This document shows, piece by piece, positions 4,178 to 31,895 of a stretch of 40,342 nt of DNA. The translations under genes and the position numbers were made by a program. The notes beneath the pieces were generated by a model. It searched no databases. It saw only the letters and a list, made by a program, of their open reading frames with translations, and was not told the DNA's origin. Each line of letters begins with the position of its first letter. The stretch's first letter is position 1. Source of the stretch: a virus. Location: the IMG/VR virus record IMGVR_UViG_3300023174_000325, positions 1 to 40,342 of that record; one strand, 5' to 3'.

Positions 4178-4334
4178 AATCTATATCTTTGTCTTTATCC
4201 CAACCAAGACGGTCAAGGATTGAACCATGTTGTCTAACGTGGATACGATAGCCAATCTCACCAATGATACGAGCAATAATGTCTCGTACTACTAGTGCTC
4301 CTGCTACTGCAATAAATACATTCCATGTTGTCAT
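4176..4334 (-). CDS. 52-aa membrane-anchored mini-protein, last gene of the leftward block
   Basis: It starts at 4334 inside the stop of the WhiB gene (ATGA overlap). The protein begins MTTWNVFIAVAGALVVRDII, a hydrophobic helix, then RIIGEIGYRIHVRQHG, and ends in an acidic tail (DKDKDID). One N-terminal membrane helix with a charged cytoplasmic part is likely. Function unknown. It is too short for most gene callers, but the overlap and regular composition support it. Confidence 0.6.
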   Translation of the reverse strand: MTTWNVFIAVAGALVVRDIIARIIGEIGYRIHVRQHGSILDRLGWDKDKDID

Positions 4335-4600
4335 GCTGTGTACCTTTCAACTATAACTGGTATTGGATTTATATTAAGTTGTTTACGCAATCGCTTGCGT
4401 TGCCATTCTGATTTACCGCCCCACCAACCTGACACATTATGATGTAATGCATAGTCAAGACATTCAGTTTTAACTAAGCATGCATCACATGTACGTTTAA
4501 GAAAGTTTTCTTCTTTAAATGTACCACTGCCTTCTTCTGTAAAAAACATATTAACATCTATGCCTATACAGTTTGCTTGGTCGGTGAAGTTATACATCAT
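4331..4600 (-). CDS. whiB: WhiB-family iron-sulfur transcription factor
   Basis: 89 aa. The four cluster ligands are Cys 11, Cys 38, Cys 41 and Cys 47 (RTCDACLVKTECLDYALHH), with the acidic FFTEE segment between the first two. The turn motif SGWWGG (about 57-62) is followed by a basic tail (KSEWQRKRLRK), which in this family contacts DNA. WhiB proteins bind a [4Fe-4S] cluster and region 4 of the host principal sigma factor. The phage copy probably redirects or represses host promoters. AGGAGG touches the first ATG, so the second ATG (4597) may be the true start. It overlaps its neighbours on both sides and lies five genes from a sigma-like gene. It is the best host marker in the window. Confidence 0.93.
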   Translation of the reverse strand: MMYNFTDQANCIGIDVNMFFTEEGSGTFKEENFLKRTCDACLVKTECLDYALHHNVSGWWGGKSEWQRKRLRKQLNINPIPVIVERYTA

Positions 4601-5326: not shown

Positions 5327-5501
5327 AGTCCATCCAATCTATAGGTGTAGGTGCGGTTGTAATTGTTCCACACTCTTTGCATTTCTGAGCAAGGTCATAC
5401 CAACTTACTTCTCTTGATTCCATATCCCACATGACTGTTATCTCAAACATCATGCAGCCACAGATACAAGCGAAGGCTGGCTCACCCCTCAGGTCGTTCA
5501 T
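5319..5501 (-). CDS. 60-aa zinc-ribbon protein
   Basis: Two Cys pairs, CICGC (about 12-16) and CKECG (about 41-45), flank a beta-rich middle (EITVMWDMESREVSWYDLAQ), which is a standard zinc-ribbon layout. Ends in an acidic WMDCD. Overlaps both neighbours by 8 and 20 bases inside the glycosyltransferase/methyltransferase cassette. It may be an accessory subunit of one of these enzymes or an independent regulator. Function unknown. Confidence 0.65.
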   Translation of the reverse strand: MNDLRGEPAFACICGCMMFEITVMWDMESREVSWYDLAQKCKECGTITTAPTPIDWMDCD

Positions 5502-6219
5502 TGTTCCAGAAGAACTTGTAATATTCTACATCAAGAGAGAACCGTTTCATATGTTGAACAACGGCTCCTGTATGAGAGTAGAGTGGGACATCTGCTTTAC
5601 CCATGAGTCGGAAGAAGTTGATGTCTTCTGATACAAACTTTTCTCCCACTCCAGTTTCATTAAAGTATGGGATAGCACCATGCACCTTGCGCATTTTGGT
5701 GATTGCACTGCGGTGCATAAGCACAAATCCAAATCCTGCTGAACCAACTTTGATAAGCGCATTTGCTGGCAAAGGGTGAACATATTGAATCTTGTACTCT
5801 TCTCCGTCAACCCAATTAAATATGGCTGGATATGGCGCCATCATTGCACGTTCATTTTCTTTTGAGATGAAGTAAGTACCTGTAACTACTGGTCGCTCTA
5901 CTGCATCTGCTGCTTGCCATACCTTATGTAGTGCATCATTGGTAAGAACAATGTCGCTATCTACCCATAGCACCCAGTCAAAGTCTGTCTTCTCATACCA
6001 GAACTCCAGCGCTTCTTGGCGCTGTCGTCCTATCTGATTGCCTTGCACACGCATGGCTGATGCAATAGGTAGACCAGATGAGATAATGCTATAAACTAAA
6101 CCTTCAGTAAACTTACCGTCTGTTGTGCCGTTGTCGCACCAACATACAATGATTTTATCTTTCGGCTGAACTTGTTGTTTCTGTGGTATCTGACTTACTT
6201 TCTTGTGAGTCTTGGTCAT
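5482..6219 (-). CDS. GT-A-type glycosyltransferase
   Basis: 245 aa. After a Gln/Lys-rich leader (1-20), strand IIVCWCDNG starts the nucleotide-sugar-binding fold. The metal site is VLWVDSDIVL (DSD at about 87-89), the acceptor-side acid pair is SEDINFF (about 197-203), and SHTGAVVQHMKRF (about 215-227) may give the third metal ligand. These match family-2-like GT-A transferases. GGAG lies eight bases before the ATG. The start lies 65 bases inside the sigma-like gene, whose low-complexity end is read in another frame. Likely transfers a sugar to a phage protein, DNA base or host surface glycan; the acceptor cannot be told. Confidence 0.8.
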   Translation of the reverse strand: MTKTHKKVSQIPQKQQVQPKDKIIVCWCDNGTTDGKFTEGLVYSIISSGLPIASAMRVQGNQIGRQRQEALEFWYEKTDFDWVLWVDSDIVLTNDALHKVWQAADAVERPVVTGTYFISKENERAMMAPYPAIFNWVDGEEYKIQYVHPLPANALIKVGSAGFGFVLMHRSAITKMRKVHGAIPYFNETGVGEKFVSEDINFFRLMGKADVPLYSHTGAVVQHMKRFSLDVEYYKFFWNNERPEG

Positions 6220-6817
6220 GGTGTGGTCTCCAACCGCCTAAGTTTTTTACGAGTGAGTTAAGTGAGCGTTGCACTTTCATGCGTGCTCCGTCTGGTGTGC
6301 TGTCCATTTCTTTGGCAAGTGTTGCCCAATCAGGTTGCTCTACGCTAAAGCGTAGGCGGAGTATGTTTTGTTTGGCTTCTGATAGTTTGTAGTAAGCGGC
6401 TGCAATATCAGAGCGAAGTACTAGCCAATTCATACCATCACTTACATCTCCACCTTTAACGGAGTTACCTAAGTCTTTAATCTTAGATGGCATTTCATAT
6501 GATTCTGAAATGATTGTAGGTAAGAAGGCTTCAACTACCGAGACGTCATAGTAATACAAATCTCCAGTATCATAACCAACCTTCTTGGCTTTTTCTTTTT
6601 CGCAGTATTTAAGTGCAGCATTACGCAGTGACTTGGCTATTAACTTGTCCTTGTCTTTTTGTTCTAATGCTGACCATTCTTTGTACTTACGTGGGTGTCC
6701 TACGAACCACACCCACAACTCTTGTCCTATATCATCACGTTCAATCATGCTATATTTACGTGCGTATTCAGATGCAAGAGTCTGTACTAAATCGTTGTAC
6801 TCTTCAATGTAATTCAT
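6155..6817 (-). CDS. Sigma-70-like transcription factor
   Basis: 220 aa. The N-terminal part (about 12-75) has the helical pattern of sigma region 2 (ASEYARKYSMIERDDIGQEL). The C-terminal part (about 144-195) has the region-4 helix-turn-helix (LSEAKQNILRLRFSVEQPDW followed by ATLAKEMDSTPDGARMKVQR). The last 25 residues are hydrophilic (DSQESKSDTTETTSS) and overlap the next gene. It could direct host RNA polymerase to phage promoters. WhiB proteins contact sigma region 4, so the two factors may work on the same enzyme. A diverged DNA-binding protein that is not a true sigma is the alternative. Confidence 0.72.
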   Translation of the reverse strand: MNYIEEYNDLVQTLASEYARKYSMIERDDIGQELWVWFVGHPRKYKEWSALEQKDKDKLIAKSLRNAALKYCEKEKAKKVGYDTGDLYYYDVSVVEAFLPTIISESYEMPSKIKDLGNSVKGGDVSDGMNWLVLRSDIAAAYYKLSEAKQNILRLRFSVEQPDWATLAKEMDSTPDGARMKVQRSLNSLVKNLGGWRPHHDQDSQESKSDTTETTSSAER

Positions 6818-17087: not shown

Positions 17088-17174
17088 TTATTTGTGTTGG
17101 TAATTTGTTGGGCAAGAACCACCCATGAAGCATGGGCAGTCCTCTTCCGCAATTAGTTCGGGTTTGTTTGTCAT
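17088..17174 (-). CDS. 28-aa Cys-rich mini-protein
   Basis: Starts in the ATGA overlap with the 151-aa gene. Sequence MTNKPELIAEEDCPCFMGGS followed by CPTNYQHK. Three Cys and a late His could bind a metal. It is short, but the overlap is the same join used throughout the block. Function unknown. Confidence 0.45.
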   Translation of the reverse strand: MTNKPELIAEEDCPCFMGGSCPTNYQHK

Positions 17175-17626
17175 CTTACGTTCACCTCCAGTTCTGCGTC
17201 ACATGATTGGCATTGGTTGAACATTTTGGGTGTGGTGAGGTGGCACATATGGCACACAACCTCACGTTGTGACTGGGTGTAGTCATCAAGTGACCAGATG
17301 TTATCAAGTTCACCACCATCCTGTAGTAGTACGATTGGGAGTTTGAACTCTTCACGCATGATGTGGTCAATCTCGTTGCCATCATCATCCAGTATGGTGC
17401 GTGAGACTGTAGTGCTACCGACCCAGTCGTGTCCGCTTGGCTCTGTTTGTACAAGCCATTGTGCTTTGTACATAAGGTTTCCTTCGGACGCCGCCTCATA
17501 CGCTCTGTCTGTGAGGCGAGCGTCTGCTGCATCTACACAATCTACGCAGAGGGTTTCCTGTGCTATGCACTCGGAACATACGTTGGAGATTGTGAGTGAG
17601 TCCTGTGTGTATGTTACTTCGTTCAT
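17171..17626 (-). CDS. 151-aa double zinc-knuckle protein, first leftward gene
   Basis: The first gene of the leftward block, with AGAAAGAAG upstream. The N-terminal part has a Cys cluster (NVCSECIAQETLCVDCVD, residues about 16-33). The C-terminal part has CHMCHLTTPKMFNQCQSCDA (about 125-144), a clean zinc ribbon. The middle is acidic with helix and strand (RTILDDDGNEIDHIMREEFK). Being first to be transcribed, it could be an early takeover protein. No family recognised. Confidence 0.65.
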   Translation of the reverse strand: MNEVTYTQDSLTISNVCSECIAQETLCVDCVDAADARLTDRAYEAASEGNLMYKAQWLVQTEPSGHDWVGSTTVSRTILDDDGNEIDHIMREEFKLPIVLLQDGGELDNIWSLDDYTQSQREVVCHMCHLTTPKMFNQCQSCDAELEVNVR

Positions 17627-17650
17627 TTTCTACTTCTTTCTAGTAGCGGG

Positions 17651-18312
17651 GTATCCACCTGATGTGAATACGCGTACAGAAATACTCCAATGTCACTCAG
17701 ACAGCCAATGCTTTGGCTGGCTGCGGGGCGAGACTTTAGGCTCGGCAGAGGCGTGGTTTACCACGCCGAGAGCAATCAGACCTGCTCACATAGTCCGAGT
17801 AAGCGAGGACTATAGGGCTGATTTGACATTAGGAGTATGATGGGAGCACCGTAGGAGGACGAGCCTGACGGTGGCGTAGCGTGGCTTTAGACACGCCGAC
17901 AACGTGGCGAGAGATGAGGGCTGAGTGCATGTCAGCATGAGGATGCAATAGACCAAGAGGCTATGCATCCGATTGCGACAGGCGAGACCACGTGGTTTAC
18001 CACGGGGGCGGACAGCCTTCGGTCCGACCAGTCGCTGCGGTAGAAGCGGTGGGGGTTTCCACCAACGGCAGACTGCAGGGTTTGGGATGCAATCCCAATT
18101 AAGCACCGCAGGTTTCAATGGAACATTGAATAGAATAGATTTAAACAGACTGCCTCCCAGTCTGACATAAATCCTATAGTGGGCGACAGCCCGACAGACA
18201 GTATCTCTACGCAGACTACGTCCAGTAGTGACAGTCTGTACAGATTAGAACATGTCTGGGCTTGACCCAGACTGTTTTAATCTGTCTGCCTGATACTGTT
18301 GGTATCTCTGTC
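17651..18312 (-). ncRNA. Large multi-stem structured RNA, candidate ornate phage RNA (GOLLD/ROOL-like)
   Basis: No credible gene lies in 17640-18530, but stems fill it. Examples: CAGCCAA/TTGGCTG (17702-17719); GGCGTGG/CCACGCC (17750-17767); AATCAG/CTGATT enclosing ATAGTCC/GGACTAT (17774-17823); CACCGTAGG/CCT-G-ACGGTG (17847-17873); GGATGCA-A-TAG/CTATGCATCC (17941-17970); CGTGG/CCACG (17991-18004); CTGCGGT/ACCGCAG (18035/18105) enclosing two hairpins; TTCAATG/CATTGAA (18114-18130); GATTTA/TAAATC enclosing CAGACTG/CAGTCTG (18138-18173); ACAGTATC/GATACTGT (18198/18292) enclosing ACAGATTA/TAATCTGT and GTCTGGG/CCCAGAC. The region looks GC-richer than its surroundings. Minus strand is favoured because 17651-17671 becomes a full 8-bp stem only there (U-G pair), but other stems favour plus. 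Size and lake-type phage context recall GOLLD; the class is unproven. Confidence 0.7.
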
Positions 18313-18478
18313 TATAAATATTTCTGTATATAGTGACTGGGGATACAGTCTGAACAGGACTTTTATATCTATTTAGAACCTGATAGTTCGTTTTAGCAGT
18401 TTGAACGGATTAATATATATGTACAGTAAAATATATTCGGAAGTCTTTTTATAGCCTTCCTCATACTGTGACAGACTG
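18069..18478. repeat. Seven CAGACTG/CAGTCTG heptamers
   Basis: Exact copies at 18069, 18146, 18268 and 18472 (CAGACTG) and at 18158, 18232 and 18346 (CAGTCTG). Random expectation for both orientations in 410 bases is about 0.05. Near copies occur at 18212 (CAGACTA) and 18510 (AAGTCTG). GTACAGAT follows two of them (18238 and 18481). Some copies are arms of RNA stems, but 18346 and 18472 lie outside the structured core. They could be operator, origin or packaging sites just upstream of the terminase gene. Confidence 0.7.
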
Positions 18479-18533
18479 TTGTACAGATATACTTCTATAC
18501 GGCGGGACAAGTCTGCCTTCAGCAAGGGGATGA
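18313..18533. promoter_or_regulatory. AT-rich divergent promoter region
   Basis: This 220-base stretch between the structured RNA and the terminase gene is rich in TATA-like text (for example 18411-18420 and 18427-18437). One possible leftward promoter is TTCAGA (18354-18349) and TATATA (18332-18327) with a 16-base spacer, which would start RNA just before the outer stem at 18312. The rightward promoter for the terminase operon should also lie here, but I found no clear -35/-10 pair. AAGGGG at 18524-18529 is the terminase ribosome site. Confidence 0.4.
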
Positions 18534-20426
18534 ATGATGTCAGGCTTTAAATCAGGGGATGAGCACCACCTCTCCAAGGGTGTGGCAAAGGCTAAGGCTG
18601 AAGTTTTAGATAAGGTGAGGGTGGGCGTCTCCCCTCAGGCGGCTATGATTGCTATAGGCAGGAAGCCAGACACAATCCGACAATGGATGGTTAGAGACCC
18701 ACTTTTTGCGGCGGCACTGGAAGAAGCAAAAGAAGAAGGAAGTAAACAATCCTTTGATGCCCTGGGTGTCCAAAAGGAGAGTATCCCCTTTGCGGACTTC
18801 TCCAAGATGTTTTTTGACCAGACGGTCTTCCCTCACCACCAGAACTGGATTGACCTTCTGGAGGGACGCGAACCATCATGGCAACACAAGAATATTATAT
18901 ATGAGCCAGGTGAAGGAAACCGCCTCTTAATCAACGTGCCACCTGAGCACGCTAAGTCCACCGTTGTAACGGTGAACTATCCAACTTACCGCATTGCCCT
19001 CAATCCTAATATCCGCATCATTGTGGTTTCTAAGACTATCACTAAGGCACGCGAGTTCGTATACGCTATCAAGCAACGATTGTCCCACCCACGCTGGCTT
19101 AAACTGCAGACCGCTTATGGTCCAGAAGGCGGCTGGAAACAGGACGCAGATACTTGGCGTACCGATACAGTCTACCTTGGGGGTGATGCGCGTAACTCAT
19201 CTGAAAAAGACCCAACTATTCAAGCACTAGGTATGGGTGGTCAGATTTACGGCGCTCGCGCAGACTTGATTATTCTAGACGACTGTATTACCACCGCTAA
19301 CGCGCATGAGTGGGAAAAGCAGTTGGACTGGTTACAGAAAGAAGTTATTACTCGTTTGGGTAAGAACGGTAAATTGCTAGTCGTAGGGACACGAATTGCA
19401 GCCAATGATTTATATAAAGAACTTCGTAACCCGAAGCACTGGTCTGGTGGTAAAACTCCATTTACTTATATGGGTATGCCTGCTGTACTGGAGTATGGCG
19501 AGAAGCCAGAAGACTGGGTCACGCTTTGGAAAGAGTCGGATGTCCCGTGGGATGGGGATGATGAGACTCCTCAGGAGAACGGCTACTACCCCAAGTGGGA
19601 CGGCAAGACCCTCAACAGACGAAGAAGTGAAGTTACACCCTCAACCTGGGCGCTCGTCTACCAACAAGAAGACATCATGGAAGACTCAATCTTCCCACCA
19701 GTTCTCTTACAGGGAAGTACCAACGGGATGCGAAAAAGAGGTCCACTACGGGCTGGGGCAGTGGGACACCCATCACAAGTAGAAGCATTTACTGTAGTTG
19801 GGTTTGACCCTGCTATGACTGGTAACTCAGCATTTGTGGTTTGTTCTTACAACCGTGCTGATGGAAAGATTTATGTGTTGGACTCTATCAATATGGAAGA
19901 CCCAACACCTCAAAAGATTAGAGCAACAATTGAAGAACTGGTTCTCAAGTATAAGCCGCAAGAGTTTCGCGTTGAAATCAACGCCCACCAAAAAGCCTAT
20001 GCCCTTGATGACGAACTACGCAACTGGCTCTCTGTCCACGGCGTACGACTTGATGCTCACTTTACAGGCAAGAACAAATGGGACACATCTTTCGGCGTTG
20101 CCTCCATGTCAAACCTCTTTGGTACGGAGCGTGATGGAAAGTTCCAAAACAATAACATTATTGAACTACCATCATCAGAAGGTAGCGAAGGACTAAAGGC
20201 TTTAACTCAACAACTGTTAACTTGGAAACCTCAAACAAGAGGCAAGACAGATACCGTTATGGCTCTATGGTTTGCAGTTATTCGCATACGCGAAATAATG
20301 CAACAAGCAAGCAGAACATCTCAGTACCTTACTAACCGTTGGGCTACTAGAGCACAAATGGATAATAGATACGCAGTCAACCTTGATGATGCCTTTGCAG
20401 AACAATGGCAAGAACAGTATGGATAG
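18534..20426 (+). CDS. terL: Terminase large subunit with N-terminal helix-turn-helix
   Basis: 630 aa (Met 1 or Met 2), AAGGGG upstream. Residues 15-65 form a helix-turn-helix domain (VLDKVRVGVSPQAAMIAIGR, then KPDTIRQWMVRDPLFAAALE) of the kind seen in small terminases. The ATPase has a variant Walker A, NVPPEHAKST (134-143), and Walker B LIILDD (245-250), with motif III-type LLVVGTR (281-287). The nuclease carries VGFDPAMTG (Asp 425), VEINAHQ (Glu 481) and KTDTVMALW (Asp 573). It cuts and pumps genome DNA into the prohead. No separate small terminase gene is visible, so DNA recognition may be fused in this protein. Confidence 0.93.
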   Translation: MMSGFKSGDEHHLSKGVAKAKAEVLDKVRVGVSPQAAMIAIGRKPDTIRQWMVRDPLFAAALEEAKEEGSKQSFDALGVQKESIPFADFSKMFFDQTVFPHHQNWIDLLEGREPSWQHKNIIYEPGEGNRLLINVPPEHAKSTVVTVNYPTYRIALNPNIRIIVVSKTITKAREFVYAIKQRLSHPRWLKLQTAYGPEGGWKQDADTWRTDTVYLGGDARNSSEKDPTIQALGMGGQIYGARADLIILDDCITTANAHEWEKQLDWLQKEVITRLGKNGKLLVVGTRIAANDLYKELRNPKHWSGGKTPFTYMGMPAVLEYGEKPEDWVTLWKESDVPWDGDDETPQENGYYPKWDGKTLNRRRSEVTPSTWALVYQQEDIMEDSIFPPVLLQGSTNGMRKRGPLRAGAVGHPSQVEAFTVVGFDPAMTGNSAFVVCSYNRADGKIYVLDSINMEDPTPQKIRATIEELVLKYKPQEFRVEINAHQKAYALDDELRNWLSVHGVRLDAHFTGKNKWDTSFGVASMSNLFGTERDGKFQNNNIIELPSSEGSEGLKALTQQLLTWKPQTRGKTDTVMALWFAVIRIREIMQQASRTSQYLTNRWATRAQMDNRYAVNLDDAFAEQWQEQYG

Positions 20427-22456: not shown

Positions 22457-22863
22457 TGGCACAACATGGTGGTTATCGTCAACCTAATAATCCAGCACCT
22501 GTATCAGGACCTGGTGCGCTTTCACAGCGCACTGATGGCGGAGCAATTGATGGAATGCAGCAACCAATGCAAACATACACTGGTTTTGAATACGGTGAAA
22601 ATAAATCATTAAATGAACAACAGGCTGGTGCGCCTATGGCTGCAACGCCAGTACCAGATATGTTGACACTTGATGCTCCTACTGCTTTACCAGACCAACC
22701 AATTTCACATGGTGCTGACTGGGGAGAAGGACCAGGCGTAGATTTATCAGGTATTCGTACTCTGTCATCTCAACCAGACCCATCATCTGTTATTTATAAC
22801 ATGATGAGAAACGACCCATCAGGACAATTAGAATCACTTTACAATAGAATTAATTTGGCGTAA
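22456..22863 (+). CDS. 135-aa Gln/Pro-rich protein, function unknown
   Basis: Low-complexity, Gly/Gln/Pro-rich first two thirds (QPNNPAPVSGPGALSQR, QQPMQTYTGFEYGENKSLNE), then a short conserved-looking end (SSVIYNMMRNDPSGQLESLY). It looks largely unstructured with a terminal helix, which would suit a head-internal or scaffold-type accessory. The stop overlaps the start of the giant protein (TAATG). Confidence 0.6.
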   Translation: MAQHGGYRQPNNPAPVSGPGALSQRTDGGAIDGMQQPMQTYTGFEYGENKSLNEQQAGAPMAATPVPDMLTLDAPTALPDQPISHGADWGEGPGVDLSGIRTLSSQPDPSSVIYNMMRNDPSGQLESLYNRINLA

Positions 22864-25800
22864 TGTCTCTGATAAATCCTAATCAGCCGTTTCAGCAGCC
22901 GACTAACAACATACTAGCAACACAAAACCCAACGCTGTATGCTGCCTCCCTTGCGGGACAACCAACGCAAGAAGAACGTGCTATTCAGGAAAACATTCAA
23001 CGTCTCCTAAATAAAGACCGTGAACTTACGCGCATTACTGACAAGACTCAGGCATACAAGGCTTTTGATAAATTAGACCCTGAAATTAAACAGGGTTTAA
23101 AGTTTATTAATGAAGGTGCTCAATATCAAATTGCACCACCATCAGTGCTTGGCATGATTGGTGGCGCTGTACTTGCTGGTATTACTGACCCATTCCGTAT
23201 GGTTTTTAAAGCGGGACAAACTTGGGGCAAGGCTTATAACACACCATACAAAGTTGCAAGAAATGTTATTGATACTGGTGGAGAAGGCAGCGGACAGGCT
23301 CTCAAAGCACTTCTTTCCAAAAAGACTTGGTCAGATGCATGGGATGGACATAACCAGTGGGACACTGGTGCTACCGCTGCACTTGCACAAAAATATGGCA
23401 AGGCACAAGACTTTTTAGTACGCGGACTTATTGATGGCAAAAAGCCTGGAGATATTATTCGTGAGTATGGTCAACTAGATACTGCAATGGTTGATGCTGT
23501 GCGTCAAATGTCAGCAAATGAATCAACATGGAAGAACATGTTTGGTGAGTACAAGGCTGCACAAATTAACCCAGGAAATGATTTTACAAACTGGATGAAC
23601 CGTAACCATCCGCCTAAAGAAGGCGGTCCATGGTCATGGTTTATGCTTGCAGAACAATCAATTTTTGCTGGTCCTGCAGGAAACATTGCTGATGTACCAG
23701 GGGCATATAAAGAATCTAAAGAAAAAAACAAATGGGTTGTTGCTAATCCTAATCCTTTTTCAAAAGAAAAATATGTTTCTCCATCTGGAGTAATTAACTT
23801 TACTTATCAAATTGCTGCTGACCCACTAACATGGCTTACTGCAGGTTCTTCTAAGGCTATTACTAAGTCAGAAAAACTTGCTGAGATATTTACACAGGCT
23901 GGTAAAAATAACAGTGCTACTCGCGTAGCAGATTTGTTTGCAGACCCAGCAGTTGCTAAATTGCATGCAGGTTTGGCTGTTGAAGTTAATGCACTTCGTA
24001 CAGCACGTGAGGCTGGCAATGATGCTGAGGCTGCATTAGTGCGCATGCGCATTGCCCGTGATTATACAAAGTATGACAACGAAGGCGTGCTTGACCTTCT
24101 TACTAAGACTAAAGTTCTTAATGATGAAGAAAAATTAGTTCCAATTACTGACCTACCTACAATGGTTAAGTTCTTTGAACAAGGCGAAAACATGAACCAT
24201 ATTCTTTCTGGTCGTGTTGAAGGTACACGTTACTATACTGAAAACCATGTGGCAATTGAACGTTCTACTCGTAAGATTACAACTGGTATTAAAGAAGCAT
24301 TTGACCAGATATTTAATGGTGTAGACCGCCGTATAGCAGCAGGTAAAGAACCTATTCCAGAAGAAGTGCTAGATAGCGCAAAAGCATTTGACCGTTACTT
24401 TGCTAACCGTCCTGAGTTTAGACTTATTGACCCTAAACAAGATGAAGTTATACAGTCTCTTACCAAGAGTGGTAATAACTTACAACAGTTCTATAACAAG
24501 ATGATGTCTAAGCATCCAGAGAACGTAATGCTTTATACAGAAGACAACATGGTTGTAAAATCTGCAAATGCATTCCGTGACTTTTCACGCGTACTTGTTG
24601 GAGATAAGTTTCGTGCTAATGCATTGACTGAGCGTTTCTTACGCGTTAGTCCAGAAGAGCGTATCAATATGCTCTTTACAATGTTTAAACTTTATACAGA
24701 TAAACTAGGATTGTCTTCAACTGTACGTGGACTTGATGTTCAACGTGCTTGGCTTGAATCAATCTTTGGTCCAATCAAGGGTATGGGTCCAATTGCTGAT
24801 GTACAAATGCCAGCGCATTTGATTTCAGATGGAATGATTGATTTGCCTGCTGGTCCAAGTCAGATTCTACATACAACTGAAGGCATCTCTATGCCTAAGT
24901 TTGACCTTATCTCTGAATGGGTACACAGCAACACTGGTCTTAATGCAGGGTTCCGCCGTCACTTTGGCATCAGTGGTCTTACCAATGAATCTTGGGCTAA
25001 GAACATTATGGGTGGCTGGACAATTGGAACTCTTTTCCCTAAGTTGGGTTTAAAATCTGCAGTTGACGAAGGCACAATTGGGCTAATGGTTCAACATCCC
25101 CGTGCTATTTTAGATTTCTTTACTGGTAAAGGTAGCGCAATTGCTAATACAGTTGCAGCATACCGTGGTAGTGATGCAACTTATGGTCTTGTTAAGAGCA
25201 AGTTACTGTCTAAGGCTGGTAAAAACCCAGCAGAGTATGTATCTGCAGCAGAACGCCGTGCTATGCAGGCTCCGCAGATGGTTGATGTTAGTTATACATT
25301 GCCTAATGGCAAGTATATTCCACGTAACCAGTTGGTTTCTGCTGATGAATACTGGGGTGCGCCCTTTGAAGAGCGCCTAGCCGCTAGAGTTATTGCAAAA
25401 TATGCAGGTAAGTTATCTGAAAAAGAAAAACAATACCTAGCAACGCATCTTATAAACAATTCACATGCCGTAGAAGGCATGGTGCAGTCGCAAGTAGCAC
25501 GTTCTTTTGGTAACACAATGGTTGATGGCAGCATTGCTGCCGAAATGTATGGCAAGTCTACCCTTACTGAGGCTGTTGAGTCTTGGGGTCGCAAGGATAT
25601 GGGAACATTCCTTTCAGATGAGAAGATGATGCTTACACATTCAGAGCGTACAGCCGTACACTTTGATGCTTTCTACCGTTACTTTGGTAAGAACGTATTT
25701 AAGACATCATATGGTCGTGTAGTTGACTTTGGTTCTCTATTCATTAAGCACAACGGTTTAAAAACAGCAGAAGATGGTGCTGCTTACGTTGATGAAGTAA

Positions 25801-28358
25801 TGGAAACTATTGGATGGACTAAACTTAGTGACGGTTCATGGGCTGTAAAGCCTAAGGTGTTTAATGAGGGTACTGAGTTTGAAAAAACTATCTCTCAAGA
25901 ACAATTACTTACATCTATTAAGCGTTTTAATGGACGATTTGGGCAGACATTTGGTTTGCGCGCAGCAGGTAAATCTGCTTCACAGATTACAGATGCAATT
26001 GTACGCAAAAGCATGGGTGAGTTATACAACGTATTCCATGGTGGGGCAGAACAGTTTAACGACACGTTGCTTAACTATATTCGCAAGCAATTAGATGATG
26101 CTGCTGTTAAAATTAAAGACCGCAAGGCATTTGAGAAGTCAGATGAATACATGCGTGCATATGCTGGCAAAGAATTGCCAACAACTGAGCAAACTGCAAA
26201 GTTCCGCCGTGAGTATGAATCACGCGTAATGTCTCCAGCACACCATGTACGTCAAACTCCATATGCTGACTTTGAAGTATTAGTTAAAGATAACCCTATT
26301 CAGGGTATGTTAAAGACTCAATACGATTTTCCTGGTCTTATTGATAGTGCGCAAAGCGCATATCAAAAGTTTACTGAGATTCCATGGAAGATGATGGATA
26401 GGCAGATTACTGACCTATACCGTGCTGATGCATTTGGTATTAAAGTTATGGAACAGCGCACAAAAATGGCTGCTGATGAAGAGCAAATGGTTAGAGACCT
26501 TATTGCCCGTGATGTAGACCCAGATGCTGCTCGTTTGCAGGCTGACTTTTTCTTTGATAGCCGTGCTACACATAATGCTGCTGATGAACTACTGAAGTAC
26601 GCTGATAACCCAGATGTACGTTCACAGATGGCATGGAACTTGCGTGGTGTTGGGCGTTTCTATCGTGCATCTGAAGACTATGTTCGCCGTTATACACGTT
26701 ATCTTATTGCACACCCAGACAAAGTTATCTACCGTACTGCACACCTAAGCCAAGCAACATCTGGTTCTGGTGTTATGTACACAGATGACAAGGGTAATCA
26801 GTATGTAATGCTTCCTAATGATGGCATCATCTGGAACATGGTAGCACCTGCGCTTACAGCGCTTACTGACCCTGTTAAGGCTGCAGTTAACCTAGCACAA
26901 GGTAACTGGGACTTCTTTAAGCAGCCACAGTGGAACCAATTCAGTATGAAACTATCGTTACTTAATCCATCATACAATGATGCTGCTGGTGTTCCATCAC
27001 TTACTGGTCCAACTATTGCTATCCCTGCACTTGCAGCGCAATCATTACTTAGCCTTGTTGGACGTACTATTAATAGCGAAGGCACTCTAAAGATTGCCGA
27101 TAACATTGATAACATTGTACTTGGACCTGGTTCTGATAACACAAACTGGATTCGTGCATCTGTTCCTCAAGACTTAATGGCTTTGTGGAATCAATTTGAC
27201 CCACAACATAAGACTGCTATACAAGCATCTACTCTTATGCAGGCTGCGGCTAACATTGAGGCTGCTGGTAATACAAAGATGAAGCCAGAAGACTGGTTAA
27301 ATGCAGAGAAGACACAGCAATACTATGACCGTTTAGGTATTGCAGTACATAATCTTATTGCAGTTAAGGTTGGATTTAACACTATTGTGCCTACAACACT
27401 AAGCACAAATGATGCTGATTTCCCTAATGAACTGCGTAGAGTTGGCGTGCTTAGTTTCCGTCAAGAGTTTAGCGACATCCTTCGTGCTGTTATTGATGTG
27501 AACTCTAAGTATGGCTATTACATGGATGACCCAATTGGTACAGCAGTATCTATGTTTACAGCATCTAACCCAGATAAACTTATCTATACCGTTGGTGCTA
27601 ACAACAAGGCTGCTAAGGCAGCCATCTCCTACACCAAGGAGACTAAGTTGTGGACCATGAAAAACAATGATTTGCTTACAGATTACAATGACGTAGCATG
27701 GGTATTTGCACCTAACATTGGCAAGTACGACCCATCTGTGGTTAAGTATCTAGAAGCAGCAGACATTATTCCAGGCAAGACTAATCCGTTTAATGACAAC
27801 GCTGGTGTATTAAAGAAGTATCTTCTTGATATAGCAACTGTGCGTGCGCGCAATGATTACTACAACATTGACCGTCAGGTTCAAGAATTGTTTGCAGATG
27901 AAAACAATCCTGACCGCAATCGTGCTACATATCGTGCAGAGATTCTACGTCAAGCACGTGATATTAAGTTTGCAATGAAACAGGCTAACCCTGCATTGGC
28001 ACTACAATTGGGTACTAACCCAATTATTCCACGCCAAGAATTGATTACTCGCTTTAATCACTTAGACCAAATGGTTAATAATCCTAAGTATTTTGACAAG
28101 TTACCTAAGGGTCAGCGCCTACAGATGGCACAGATGACAGCGTTAACAAACAGAATGCTCATGGTTCTTGAAGATACTAACGTGCGTTCACAGTTTAATG
28201 GTGCAGAAACTGTAGATAAAGTCCGTCAAGAAGGACTTGATTACTTAAAGAACTTTGCAGCGGGTAATGCTCCGCTTGTAGAAGCATACCAAAGCATTAT
28301 CAAACCACTTATTGATGATGTATATACCACTCCGACTTTAGCAATGAGTAAGGGATAA
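22863..28358 (+). CDS. Giant 1831-aa virion protein, ejection/internal protein candidate
   Basis: By far the longest gene, 14% of the genome. No enzyme motif stands out. Hydrophobic or amphipathic helices are visible near the N-terminus (SVLGMIGGAVLAGITDPFRM, about residues 95-114). Long helical stretches alternate with Trp-rich segments (GPWSWFMLAEQSIFAGPAGN). It lies after the portal and before the scaffold and capsid genes. Because no tape measure, tail tube or sheath gene is visible, it is best read as an internal or ejected protein of a short-tailed phage, perhaps forming a conduit through the cell envelope. A tape-measure-like role is the alternative. Base composition matches its neighbours, so there is no sign of recent transfer. 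Confidence 0.6.
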   Translation: MSLINPNQPFQQPTNNILATQNPTLYAASLAGQPTQEERAIQENIQRLLNKDRELTRITDKTQAYKAFDKLDPEIKQGLKFINEGAQYQIAPPSVLGMIGGAVLAGITDPFRMVFKAGQTWGKAYNTPYKVARNVIDTGGEGSGQALKALLSKKTWSDAWDGHNQWDTGATAALAQKYGKAQDFLVRGLIDGKKPGDIIREYGQLDTAMVDAVRQMSANESTWKNMFGEYKAAQINPGNDFTNWMNRNHPPKEGGPWSWFMLAEQSIFAGPAGNIADVPGAYKESKEKNKWVVANPNPFSKEKYVSPSGVINFTYQIAADPLTWLTAGSSKAITKSEKLAEIFTQAGKNNSATRVADLFADPAVAKLHAGLAVEVNALRTAREAGNDAEAALVRMRIARDYTKYDNEGVLDLLTKTKVLNDEEKLVPITDLPTMVKFFEQGENMNHILSGRVEGTRYYTENHVAIERSTRKITTGIKEAFDQIFNGVDRRIAAGKEPIPEEVLDSAKAFDRYFANRPEFRLIDPKQDEVIQSLTKSGNNLQQFYNKMMSKHPENVMLYTEDNMVVKSANAFRDFSRVLVGDKFRANALTERFLRVSPEERINMLFTMFKLYTDKLGLSSTVRGLDVQRAWLESIFGPIKGMGPIADVQMPAHLISDGMIDLPAGPSQILHTTEGISMPKFDLISEWVHSNTGLNAGFRRHFGISGLTNESWAKNIMGGWTIGTLFPKLGLKSAVDEGTIGLMVQHPRAILDFFTGKGSAIANTVAAYRGSDATYGLVKSKLLSKAGKNPAEYVSAAERRAMQAPQMVDVSYTLPNGKYIPRNQLVSADEYWGAPFEERLAARVIAKYAGKLSEKEKQYLATHLINNSHAVEGMVQSQVARSFGNTMVDGSIAAEMYGKSTLTEAVESWGRKDMGTFLSDEKMMLTHSERTAVHFDAFYRYFGKNVFKTSYGRVVDFGSLFIKHNGLKTAEDGAAYVDEVMETIGWTKLSDGSWAVKPKVFNEGTEFEKTISQEQLLTSIKRFNGRFGQTFGLRAAGKSASQITDAIVRKSMGELYNVFHGGAEQFNDTLLNYIRKQLDDAAVKIKDRKAFEKSDEYMRAYAGKELPTTEQTAKFRREYESRVMSPAHHVRQTPYADFEVLVKDNPIQGMLKTQYDFPGLIDSAQSAYQKFTEIPWKMMDRQITDLYRADAFGIKVMEQRTKMAADEEQMVRDLIARDVDPDAARLQADFFFDSRATHNAADELLKYADNPDVRSQMAWNLRGVGRFYRASEDYVRRYTRYLIAHPDKVIYRTAHLSQATSGSGVMYTDDKGNQYVMLPNDGIIWNMVAPALTALTDPVKAAVNLAQGNWDFFKQPQWNQFSMKLSLLNPSYNDAAGVPSLTGPTIAIPALAAQSLLSLVGRTINSEGTLKIADNIDNIVLGPGSDNTNWIRASVPQDLMALWNQFDPQHKTAIQASTLMQAAANIEAAGNTKMKPEDWLNAEKTQQYYDRLGIAVHNLIAVKVGFNTIVPTTLSTNDADFPNELRRVGVLSFRQEFSDILRAVIDVNSKYGYYMDDPIGTAVSMFTASNPDKLIYTVGANNKAAKAAISYTKETKLWTMKNNDLLTDYNDVAWVFAPNIGKYDPSVVKYLEAADIIPGKTNPFNDNAGVLKKYLLDIATVRARNDYYNIDRQVQELFADENNPDRNRATYRAEILRQARDIKFAMKQANPALALQLGTNPIIPRQELITRFNHLDQMVNNPKYFDKLPKGQRLQMAQMTALTNRMLMVLEDTNVRSQFNGAETVDKVRQEGLDYLKNFAAGNAPLVEAYQSIIKPLIDDVYTTPTLAMSKG

Positions 28359-31293: not shown

Positions 31294-31365
31294 CTACATG
31301 GACCTACCAGCCCCATGTGGTGTATAAGACTGGGAGTAGAAGCCAGCCTAGTTTCCCCAAACTAG
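31294..31365 (+). promoter_or_regulatory. Two stem-loops in the leader of the scaffold-capsid genes
   Basis: In the 131-base gap before the scaffold gene, CTACATGG (31294-31301) pairs with CCATGTGG (31313-31320), one wobble included. CTAGTTT (31348-31354) pairs with AAACTAG (31359-31365) around CCCC. A TGTATAAG stretch (31321-31328) between them could be an extended -10 element, but no -35 match is seen. The gap is unusual in an otherwise packed operon, so extra control of the capsid genes is likely. Confidence 0.5.
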
Positions 31366-31412
31366 AACTGTGGTCTGCGATTCAACTAATGAAATATGGG
31401 AGGACGGTTGCT

Positions 31413-31895
31413 ATGACCAACCAATACTGGGACGAAGAAGAAGATGAAGTAGATAACACTTCAATGAGCAACGATTCAGATGCAATGAAGCAATTGCGTA
31501 AAGCAAAGCGAGCAGATGAAAAGCGCATTAAAGAACTATCTGAAAAACTAGAAGCCTTTGATAAGGCTCAACGTGAAACTGTCATCAAGAAAGTCCTAGA
31601 ACTTAAAGGCGTAAGTCCAAAGGCTGCACGTCTGATTGTCCGTGAACTAGAAGGCGATATAACAGAAGACTCAGTTTCTAACTGGGTTGATGATAACGCT
31701 GACATGTTTGGACTTCAGGTGCAGGAACAGCAAACGCCTGAACAAACACTGGACCGTGCTGCATTACGTCAGCAGGACATTGTAACTCAGGCTGCTATTA
31801 CGCCTGACCGCTCACAAGATACATTGCTTAAACTTAATAATGCTGCTAGTGCAGAAGAGATTATTGCAATGATTCAATCGGGCGATTTTAACTAA
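31413..31895 (+). CDS. Scaffold protein candidate
   Basis: 160 aa from the ATG at 31413, with GGGAGGAC upstream. The longer frame to 31317 would read through two hairpins. Very acidic N-terminus (DEEEDEVDNTSMSNDSDAMK), then a coiled coil (RADEKRIKELSEKLEAFDKA), a central helical domain (KKVLELKGVSPKAARLIVRE) and a C-terminal helix (NNAASAEEIIAMIQSGDFN). Length, charge, coiled coil and position directly before the major capsid gene are those of head scaffolds. It should guide capsid assembly and then leave. Confidence 0.78.
   Translation: MTNQYWDEEEDEVDNTSMSNDSDAMKQLRKAKRADEKRIKELSEKLEAFDKAQRETVIKKVLELKGVSPKAARLIVRELEGDITEDSVSNWVDDNADMFGLQVQEQQTPEQTLDRAALRQQDIVTQAAITPDRSQDTLLKLNNAASAEEIIAMIQSGDFN

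Follow-up and report, generated by a model that had tools for sequence, protein, structure and literature searches.

The viral window analyzed here (the whole stretch of 40,342 nucleotides, corresponding to positions 1 to 40,342 of IMG/VR record IMGVR_UViG_3300023174_000325) raises the question of what fills the gap between a leftward gene for a CxxC protein and the gene for the terminase large subunit (TerL). A sequence-only reading had flagged basepairs 17651–18312, which lie within that gap, as a single large RNA of nested stems, possibly of the GOLLD/ROOL class. Our analysis instead divides the region into two elements (modules A and B), with structure continuing beyond 18312 to the start of TerL. 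The locus is organized as follows:

17171–17626, minus strand: divergent gene for a 151-residue, zinc-ribbon-like CxxC protein; left flank of the slot
17651–17671, minus strand: 8-bp inverted repeat GTATCCAC-N5-GTGAATAC, fully paired on this strand only
About 17681–18120 (ends approximate), plus strand: module A, the ornate RNA proper
About 18129–18531, plus strand: module B, a second structured region reaching the TerL start
18534–20426, plus strand: TerL (phrog_38, E 6e-73); right flank of the slot

The CxxC protein matched no Pfam or PHROG family, and tblastn places its gene next to the RNA in almost every homologous contig.

The phage and its probable host

An actinophage had been suggested as the carrier of this region, and the gene content of the window agrees with that suggestion. 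The window encodes a WhiB protein (4331–4600), a phage sigma factor (6155–6817) and a glycosyltransferase (5482–6219), in agreement with the genes reported for E7 and F5, cultured phages of Planktophila for which a cultured host also exists (PMC10202952). Those phages are also the nearest database records (LanE43-AprE7, OX376640, and AprF5, OX376641), with 62% identity in TerL and 66% in the capsid protein. The shared gene set and the relatedness of TerL and capsid point to an actinobacterium of the Nanopelagicales type as the host. A search of 84,980 bacterial and archaeal species genomes returned no match by RNA pattern or by TerL, and we therefore name no prophage or host species. The window contains no tRNA or tmRNA gene. 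A protein of 1831 residues encoded within the structural gene block (22863–28358) has no PHROG match.

Fold strength and coding potential

The region 17640–18535 has a folding energy of −346 kcal/mol, corresponding to z scores of −10.0 on the plus strand and −12.2 on the minus strand, with none of 20 shuffled sequences folding as well. We compared the equivalent slots of related phages with TerL coding DNA from the same phages, using at most two representatives from each of 18 BLAST clusters that are mutually unrelated by BLAST (n = 27). The slots gave a median z of −4.4 (20 of 27 below −3), versus a median of −0.9 for the TerL coding DNA (1 of 27 below −3). The dense stems noticed in the flagged stretch therefore stand as an observation beyond chance.

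The absence of a credible coding frame, also proposed earlier, holds in part: open reading frames of 102–180 residues do overlap the stretch (17298–17840 on the plus strand and 17810–18118 on the minus strand), but no frame is kept among the homologues, because these differ by one-base insertions and deletions and by swapped hairpins.

Module A has a conserved, covarying fold

Module A is defined by an nhmmer profile (17651–18076), by a covariance model (match in the window at 17773–17913, E 1e-28) and by alignments A1, A4 and A5. It is read in the same sense as the TerL gene, and comprises a long helix (P1) closing a multi-branch domain, followed by a covarying arm and finally by a second branched domain. 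Its predicted parts, all on the plus strand, are listed below:

17682–17838: domain I, the multi-branch loop closed by P1 (descriptor fit)
17682–17688 with 17832–17838, and GTCA (17692–17695) with TGAC (17824–17827): P1
17698–17723: domain I hairpin CAGACAGCCAA / TTGGCTGGCTG, with two-sided changes (A1 helix 3); it folds, and relatives carry other hairpins
17750–17767: domain I hairpin GGCGTGGTTTACCACGCC, a perfect inverted repeat (A1 helix 5)
17774–17823: last branch of domain I, AATCAG (17774–17779) with CTGATT (17818–17823), with two-sided AU/GC and UA/GC changes
17790–17796 with 17807–17813: ATAGTCC/GGACTAT within that branch, a GAAUA-loop hairpin in most relatives
17861–17910: arm II, GAGCC...GGCGAG (A4 helices 5 and 6)
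17879–17896: hairpin GCGTG(GCTTTAGA)CACGC closed by arm II
17908–18026: domain III, closed by GAGGGCTG (17916–17923) with CAGCCTTC (18013–18020) (RNAalifold on A5)
17926–17984 and 17988–18007: long arm and hairpin inside domain III
18034–18111: variable 3' arm with two inner hairpins at the end of module A (minimum-energy fold)

Covariation among collected homologues had been suggested as a check on the proposed RNA, and it exceeds chance in module A. In alignment A1 (11 sequences, unfitted), 17 of 62 pairs show two-sided change, a count reached in none of 500 shuffles. In alignment A4 (28 distinct sequences) the corresponding count is 26 of 33 pairs, with 93.8% of cells paired; A4 is fitted to the model and leans towards it, making A1 the cleaner test. 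Slid versions of the two alignments left 28–40% of cells paired. RNAalifold found poor structure in the full mixed alignment because hairpins are swapped between relatives, and class-wise alignments were used in its place.

P1 (ATACTCC...GTCA / TGAC...GGAGTAT in the window) and the last branch of domain I (AATCNN/NNGATT) together form a descriptor that fits 52 loci, with one match in a reversed-sequence control. Variants of P1 include ATACTCC/GGAGTAT, GTATCGC/GCGATAC, AATCTGC/GCAGATT and TAGCCTATG/CATGGGCTA, among others. Every cell pairs in 14 rows fitting the P1 descriptor, with two-sided change in 9 of 16 pairs, a count that serves as an illustration and not a test since the rows were picked by the descriptor itself. 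Under one and the same P1, relatives hold anything from two hairpins up to a long branched set. Arm II shows two-sided change in 12 of 15 pairs, and domain III in nine pairs; the closing helix of domain III is nearly invariant and includes a conserved G.U pair. An inner hairpin of the 3' arm (GGGATGCAATCCC) changes in step among relatives. The sequence-only reading had described this arm as enclosing two hairpins at 18035–18111, and the arm does appear in the predicted fold, but comparison of homologues does little to support its closing stem. Taken together, the alignments show module A to have a conserved, covarying predicted fold made up of the P1-closed multi-branch domain, arm II and domain III.

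The hairpin GCGTGGCTTTAGACACGC (17879–17896) recurs with an identical loop in loci L007, L020 and L062 and in other slots that otherwise share little. This loop could possibly make a tertiary contact.

The plus strand carries the fold

By consensus energy, alignments A1 and A2 and three of four further families fold better on the plus strand; the fourth family is about equal. Interior mismatches in helices common to the folds of both strands, counted over all slots, comprise 63 G.T and 35 A.C, and the A4 helices contain 17 G.U versus 4 A.C cells. Counts of mismatch type within single sequences are too weak to fix the strand; folds and homologue comparison together settle it as plus.

The inverted repeat at 17651–17671 behaves differently. 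It is the first stem of the flagged stretch but does not belong to the plus-strand RNA: its variants across homologues, when read on that strand, are 11 A.C and no G.U mismatches. This bias assigns the repeat to a divergent transcript or to a DNA site, and it is best read as a putative hairpin of the divergent mRNA leader (minus strand) or a putative DNA operator.

Module B and its near-universal element

Module B was recognized by blastn and in alignments, and is present in most TerL relatives. Its main features are:

18193–18308, plus strand: three-level arm (z −5.7 for 18190–18312; alignment)
18386–18413, strand not assigned: near-universal palindromic element GTTCGTTTTAGCAGTTTGAACGGATTAA (GTTCGTTT...GTTTGAACGGATTAA), with 8-mers in 13–14 of 15 clusters
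18501–18517, plus strand: small hairpin GGCGG/CTGCC with G.U, folding on this strand only, just 5' of the TerL ribosome-binding site (fold and alignment)

The three-level arm previously noted at 18198–18299 is thus present in the fold, and the 3' part of the flagged stretch (18190–18312) is a portion of module B. RNAalifold gave no usable structure for module B across 25 loci because of swapped hairpins, and covariation was therefore read from six close relatives. The inner hairpin at 18254–18272 (GTCTGGG/CCCAGAC) becomes CTAGGGG/CCCCTAG or GTAGGGG/CCCCTAC in relatives.

The palindromic element occurs once in the window, and its exact pattern, where found, is present in one copy per locus; phages E7 and F5 carry an altered form. 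It is a candidate late promoter for the phage sigma factor, or a candidate packaging site.

In locus L001 a tRNA-Arg (ACG) gene lies between module B and TerL (5908–5980, plus strand of that locus). Loci L004 and L008 have a T-arm-like sequence at the same position that was not called by ARAGORN.

A fixed slot with rapid turnover of its RNA

A TerL search yielded 80 loci, with module B upstream of terL in most and module A in some. A degenerate pattern for the module A core, applied without regard to context, identified 39 viral contigs, all of which retain one or both slot flanks. We trained a covariance model on 11 loci; at E < 1e-6 it matched 23 of 75 loci, with a single match in each that fell invariably within the slot, and only two of the 23 belonged to the training set. 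Two pattern scans with a 3' motif added only three new loci, and a nucleotide search of annotated phages returned only 30-base chance matches.

The relatedness of the RNA does not follow that of terL. Locus L001, with a TerL 93% identical to that of the window phage, has an RNA profile score of 40 bits, whereas L051 (76%) scores 484 and L092 (54%) scores 309, and many relatives with TerL 84% identical have no RNA profile score. Close TerL genes often stand beside RNAs unrelated by BLAST, and distant ones may adjoin the same RNA. Together with the existence of 18 BLAST clusters, this argues that the slot is stable and its RNA replaced, with the proviso that clusters called unrelated by BLAST may conceal common ancestry (for example through a common GTCA/TGAC closing stem). 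That stem occurs in 36 loci versus at most 13 for other permutations of its sequence; the homologues are non-independent, and a stem uniting all slot RNAs is therefore a lead only.

In L001 and L004, TerL is intact but module A is either replaced or shortened to at most a few hundred bases. In the Planktophila phages E7 and F5 it is not recognizable; these phages share with the window phage module B sequence elements such as GTTCG...TTTGAACGG, but in their slot stands a different sequence that is less strongly structured (z −2.2 and −4.4). Judged across these homologues, the slot is fixed, and hairpin modules and whole RNAs are rapidly exchanged within it.

Two further kinds of slot were seen. 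The slots of L070, L004, L064 and L075 carry an outer stem topped by a GTCA/TGAC hairpin, and may encode very small RNAs, perhaps a minimal form. Those of L005, L042, L044 and L072 hold a second, highly conserved RNA family of ∼480 nucleotides, in which a separate set of stems varies (alignment A6).

We tentatively suggest, at clearly less than even odds, that freshwater actinophages reserve the slot in front of terL as a cassette site where large structured RNAs can replace one another. Several sequence-unrelated families would there serve one role and diversify by stem swapping, as a hypervariable system for host interaction or packaging. If so, it would be a cassette-site RNA system without a described counterpart.

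Possible functions

We favor, with a probability of roughly 0.55, the reading that module A encodes, on the TerL strand, a large noncoding and structured RNA that has its own transcript and serves as a folded scaffold somewhat like GOLLD and ROOL. Its synthesis would accompany or precede expression of the late genes for packaging and structure, and the RNA would function either by itself, assembling into an oligomer like GOLLD and ROOL, or together with a protein of phage or host origin. Its shape would be dictated by the conserved core, and the stems that are exchanged would adjust how it binds its partner, while module B would carry a late promoter or packaging site together with the TerL leader. 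We recognized neither a convincing terminator nor a convincing sigma-70 promoter that would delimit module A as its own transcript, and the divergent start codon lies only ∼50 bases from P1, so that a promoter would overlap the CxxC gene. Phages E7 and F5, with no recognizable module A, also count against a scaffold.

The same arrangement could instead reflect an exceptionally long leader at the 5' end of the late operon, starting to the left of module A and either controlling TerL translation or conferring terminator resistance in the manner of put/EAR elements. Such a leader would account for a structure that lies on the TerL strand immediately 5' of the first late gene and that extends, through module B, down to the ribosome-binding site, in a phage encoding its own sigma factor. 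We nevertheless regard it as fairly unlikely: a near-universal promoter- or site-like element sits between module A and TerL, known leaders of the put/EAR kind are several times smaller, and module A is replaced or shrunken in the close relatives L001 and L004 with TerL intact. A decoy or sponge RNA engaged in an arms race with host defences would explain the turnover of hairpin modules and the replacement of whole cassettes among close relatives, but a conserved core and long P1 exceed what a decoy needs, and no resemblance to a catalogued RNA family was found; we judge this reading unlikely.

It is rather improbable that the RNA partners TerL in packaging, in a role like that of the phi29 pRNA and at a position where terS often lies. 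It invariably adjoins terL, and the scanned ORFs include no clear terS (a weak match of 31317–31895 to phrog_426, E 0.001, was the sole candidate). Against this, TerL is an ordinary phrog_38 terminase rather than an ATPase of the phi29 kind, replacement of the RNA is not mirrored in terL (the same RNA standing beside terminases 54–93% identical), and E7 and F5 package their DNA without a recognizable copy. Finally, inverted repeats also arise as protein sites, and module B contains repeated CAGACTG/ACTGTACA motifs as well as its unique palindrome, as might be expected if the stems were DNA elements (a packaging or replication site, or operator arrays). DNA sites do not predict the long-range helices, the two-sided changes of many types or the one-strand excess of G.U over A.C in module A, and we consider this explanation very improbable.

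Comparison with known RNA families

Very few large ornate phage RNAs are known, and none has a settled function. The search suggested by the sequence-only reading (GOLLD, ROOL, OLE and HEARO) was run on the region with Rfam 15, both at the gathering score and at E ≤ 10, and none of the four models matched. The region gave no credible family at E ≤ 10 (a chance microRNA match, E 6.2, was the only hit there), and no family reached its gathering score in the whole window or in 42 related loci. Matches to microRNA, Plastid-ycf2, ceN23-1 and SPRY4 models fell far under their gathering scores and were rejected. The proposed identity with GOLLD or ROOL thus finds no support in the window or its relatives, and by these model searches the module A family lies outside Rfam; we found no description of it in the open-access literature. 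A large structured phage RNA is strongly supported by the covariation, by the strand signal and by its retention in dozens of contigs from phages. The fallback offered earlier, that of a new large phage RNA, is the reading favored here, with novelty judged against Rfam 15 and the open-access literature.

Resemblance to OLE and HEARO (omega RNA) is limited to size class, and no partner genes of either were recognized among the window proteins scanned. The phi29 pRNA is likewise a phage RNA, and the position of module A could relate to packaging, but the terminase is of another type, the pRNA has no Rfam match here, and the window RNA is exchanged independently of terL. The likeness to GOLLD is broader, extending to large size, many nested stems, a phage carrier, a lake habitat, a variable region and, in relative L001, a tRNA gene separating the RNA region from TerL. 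GOLLD entries in Rfam derive from lakes and Lactobacillales. GOLLD measures ∼800 nucleotides, compared with ∼440 for module A and ∼850 nucleotides of DNA for both modules together. ROOL is also a large ornate phage RNA with covarying stems.

The module A family occupies one genomic slot in many freshwater phage contigs and changes faster than its flanking genes. Its long, short and absent natural forms could be used to ask what such RNAs do, a question standing since the discovery of GOLLD and ROOL, and expression of the locus is testable with phages E7 and F5 and their cultured host (PMC10202952). GOLLD forms a homo-oligomeric, RNA-only cage of 14 subunits and ROOL an RNA-only octameric cage, although the two are unrelated in sequence (PMC12286853). 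Since cage formation is common to both without shared sequence, it is possible that the module A RNA works as they do while belonging to neither family.
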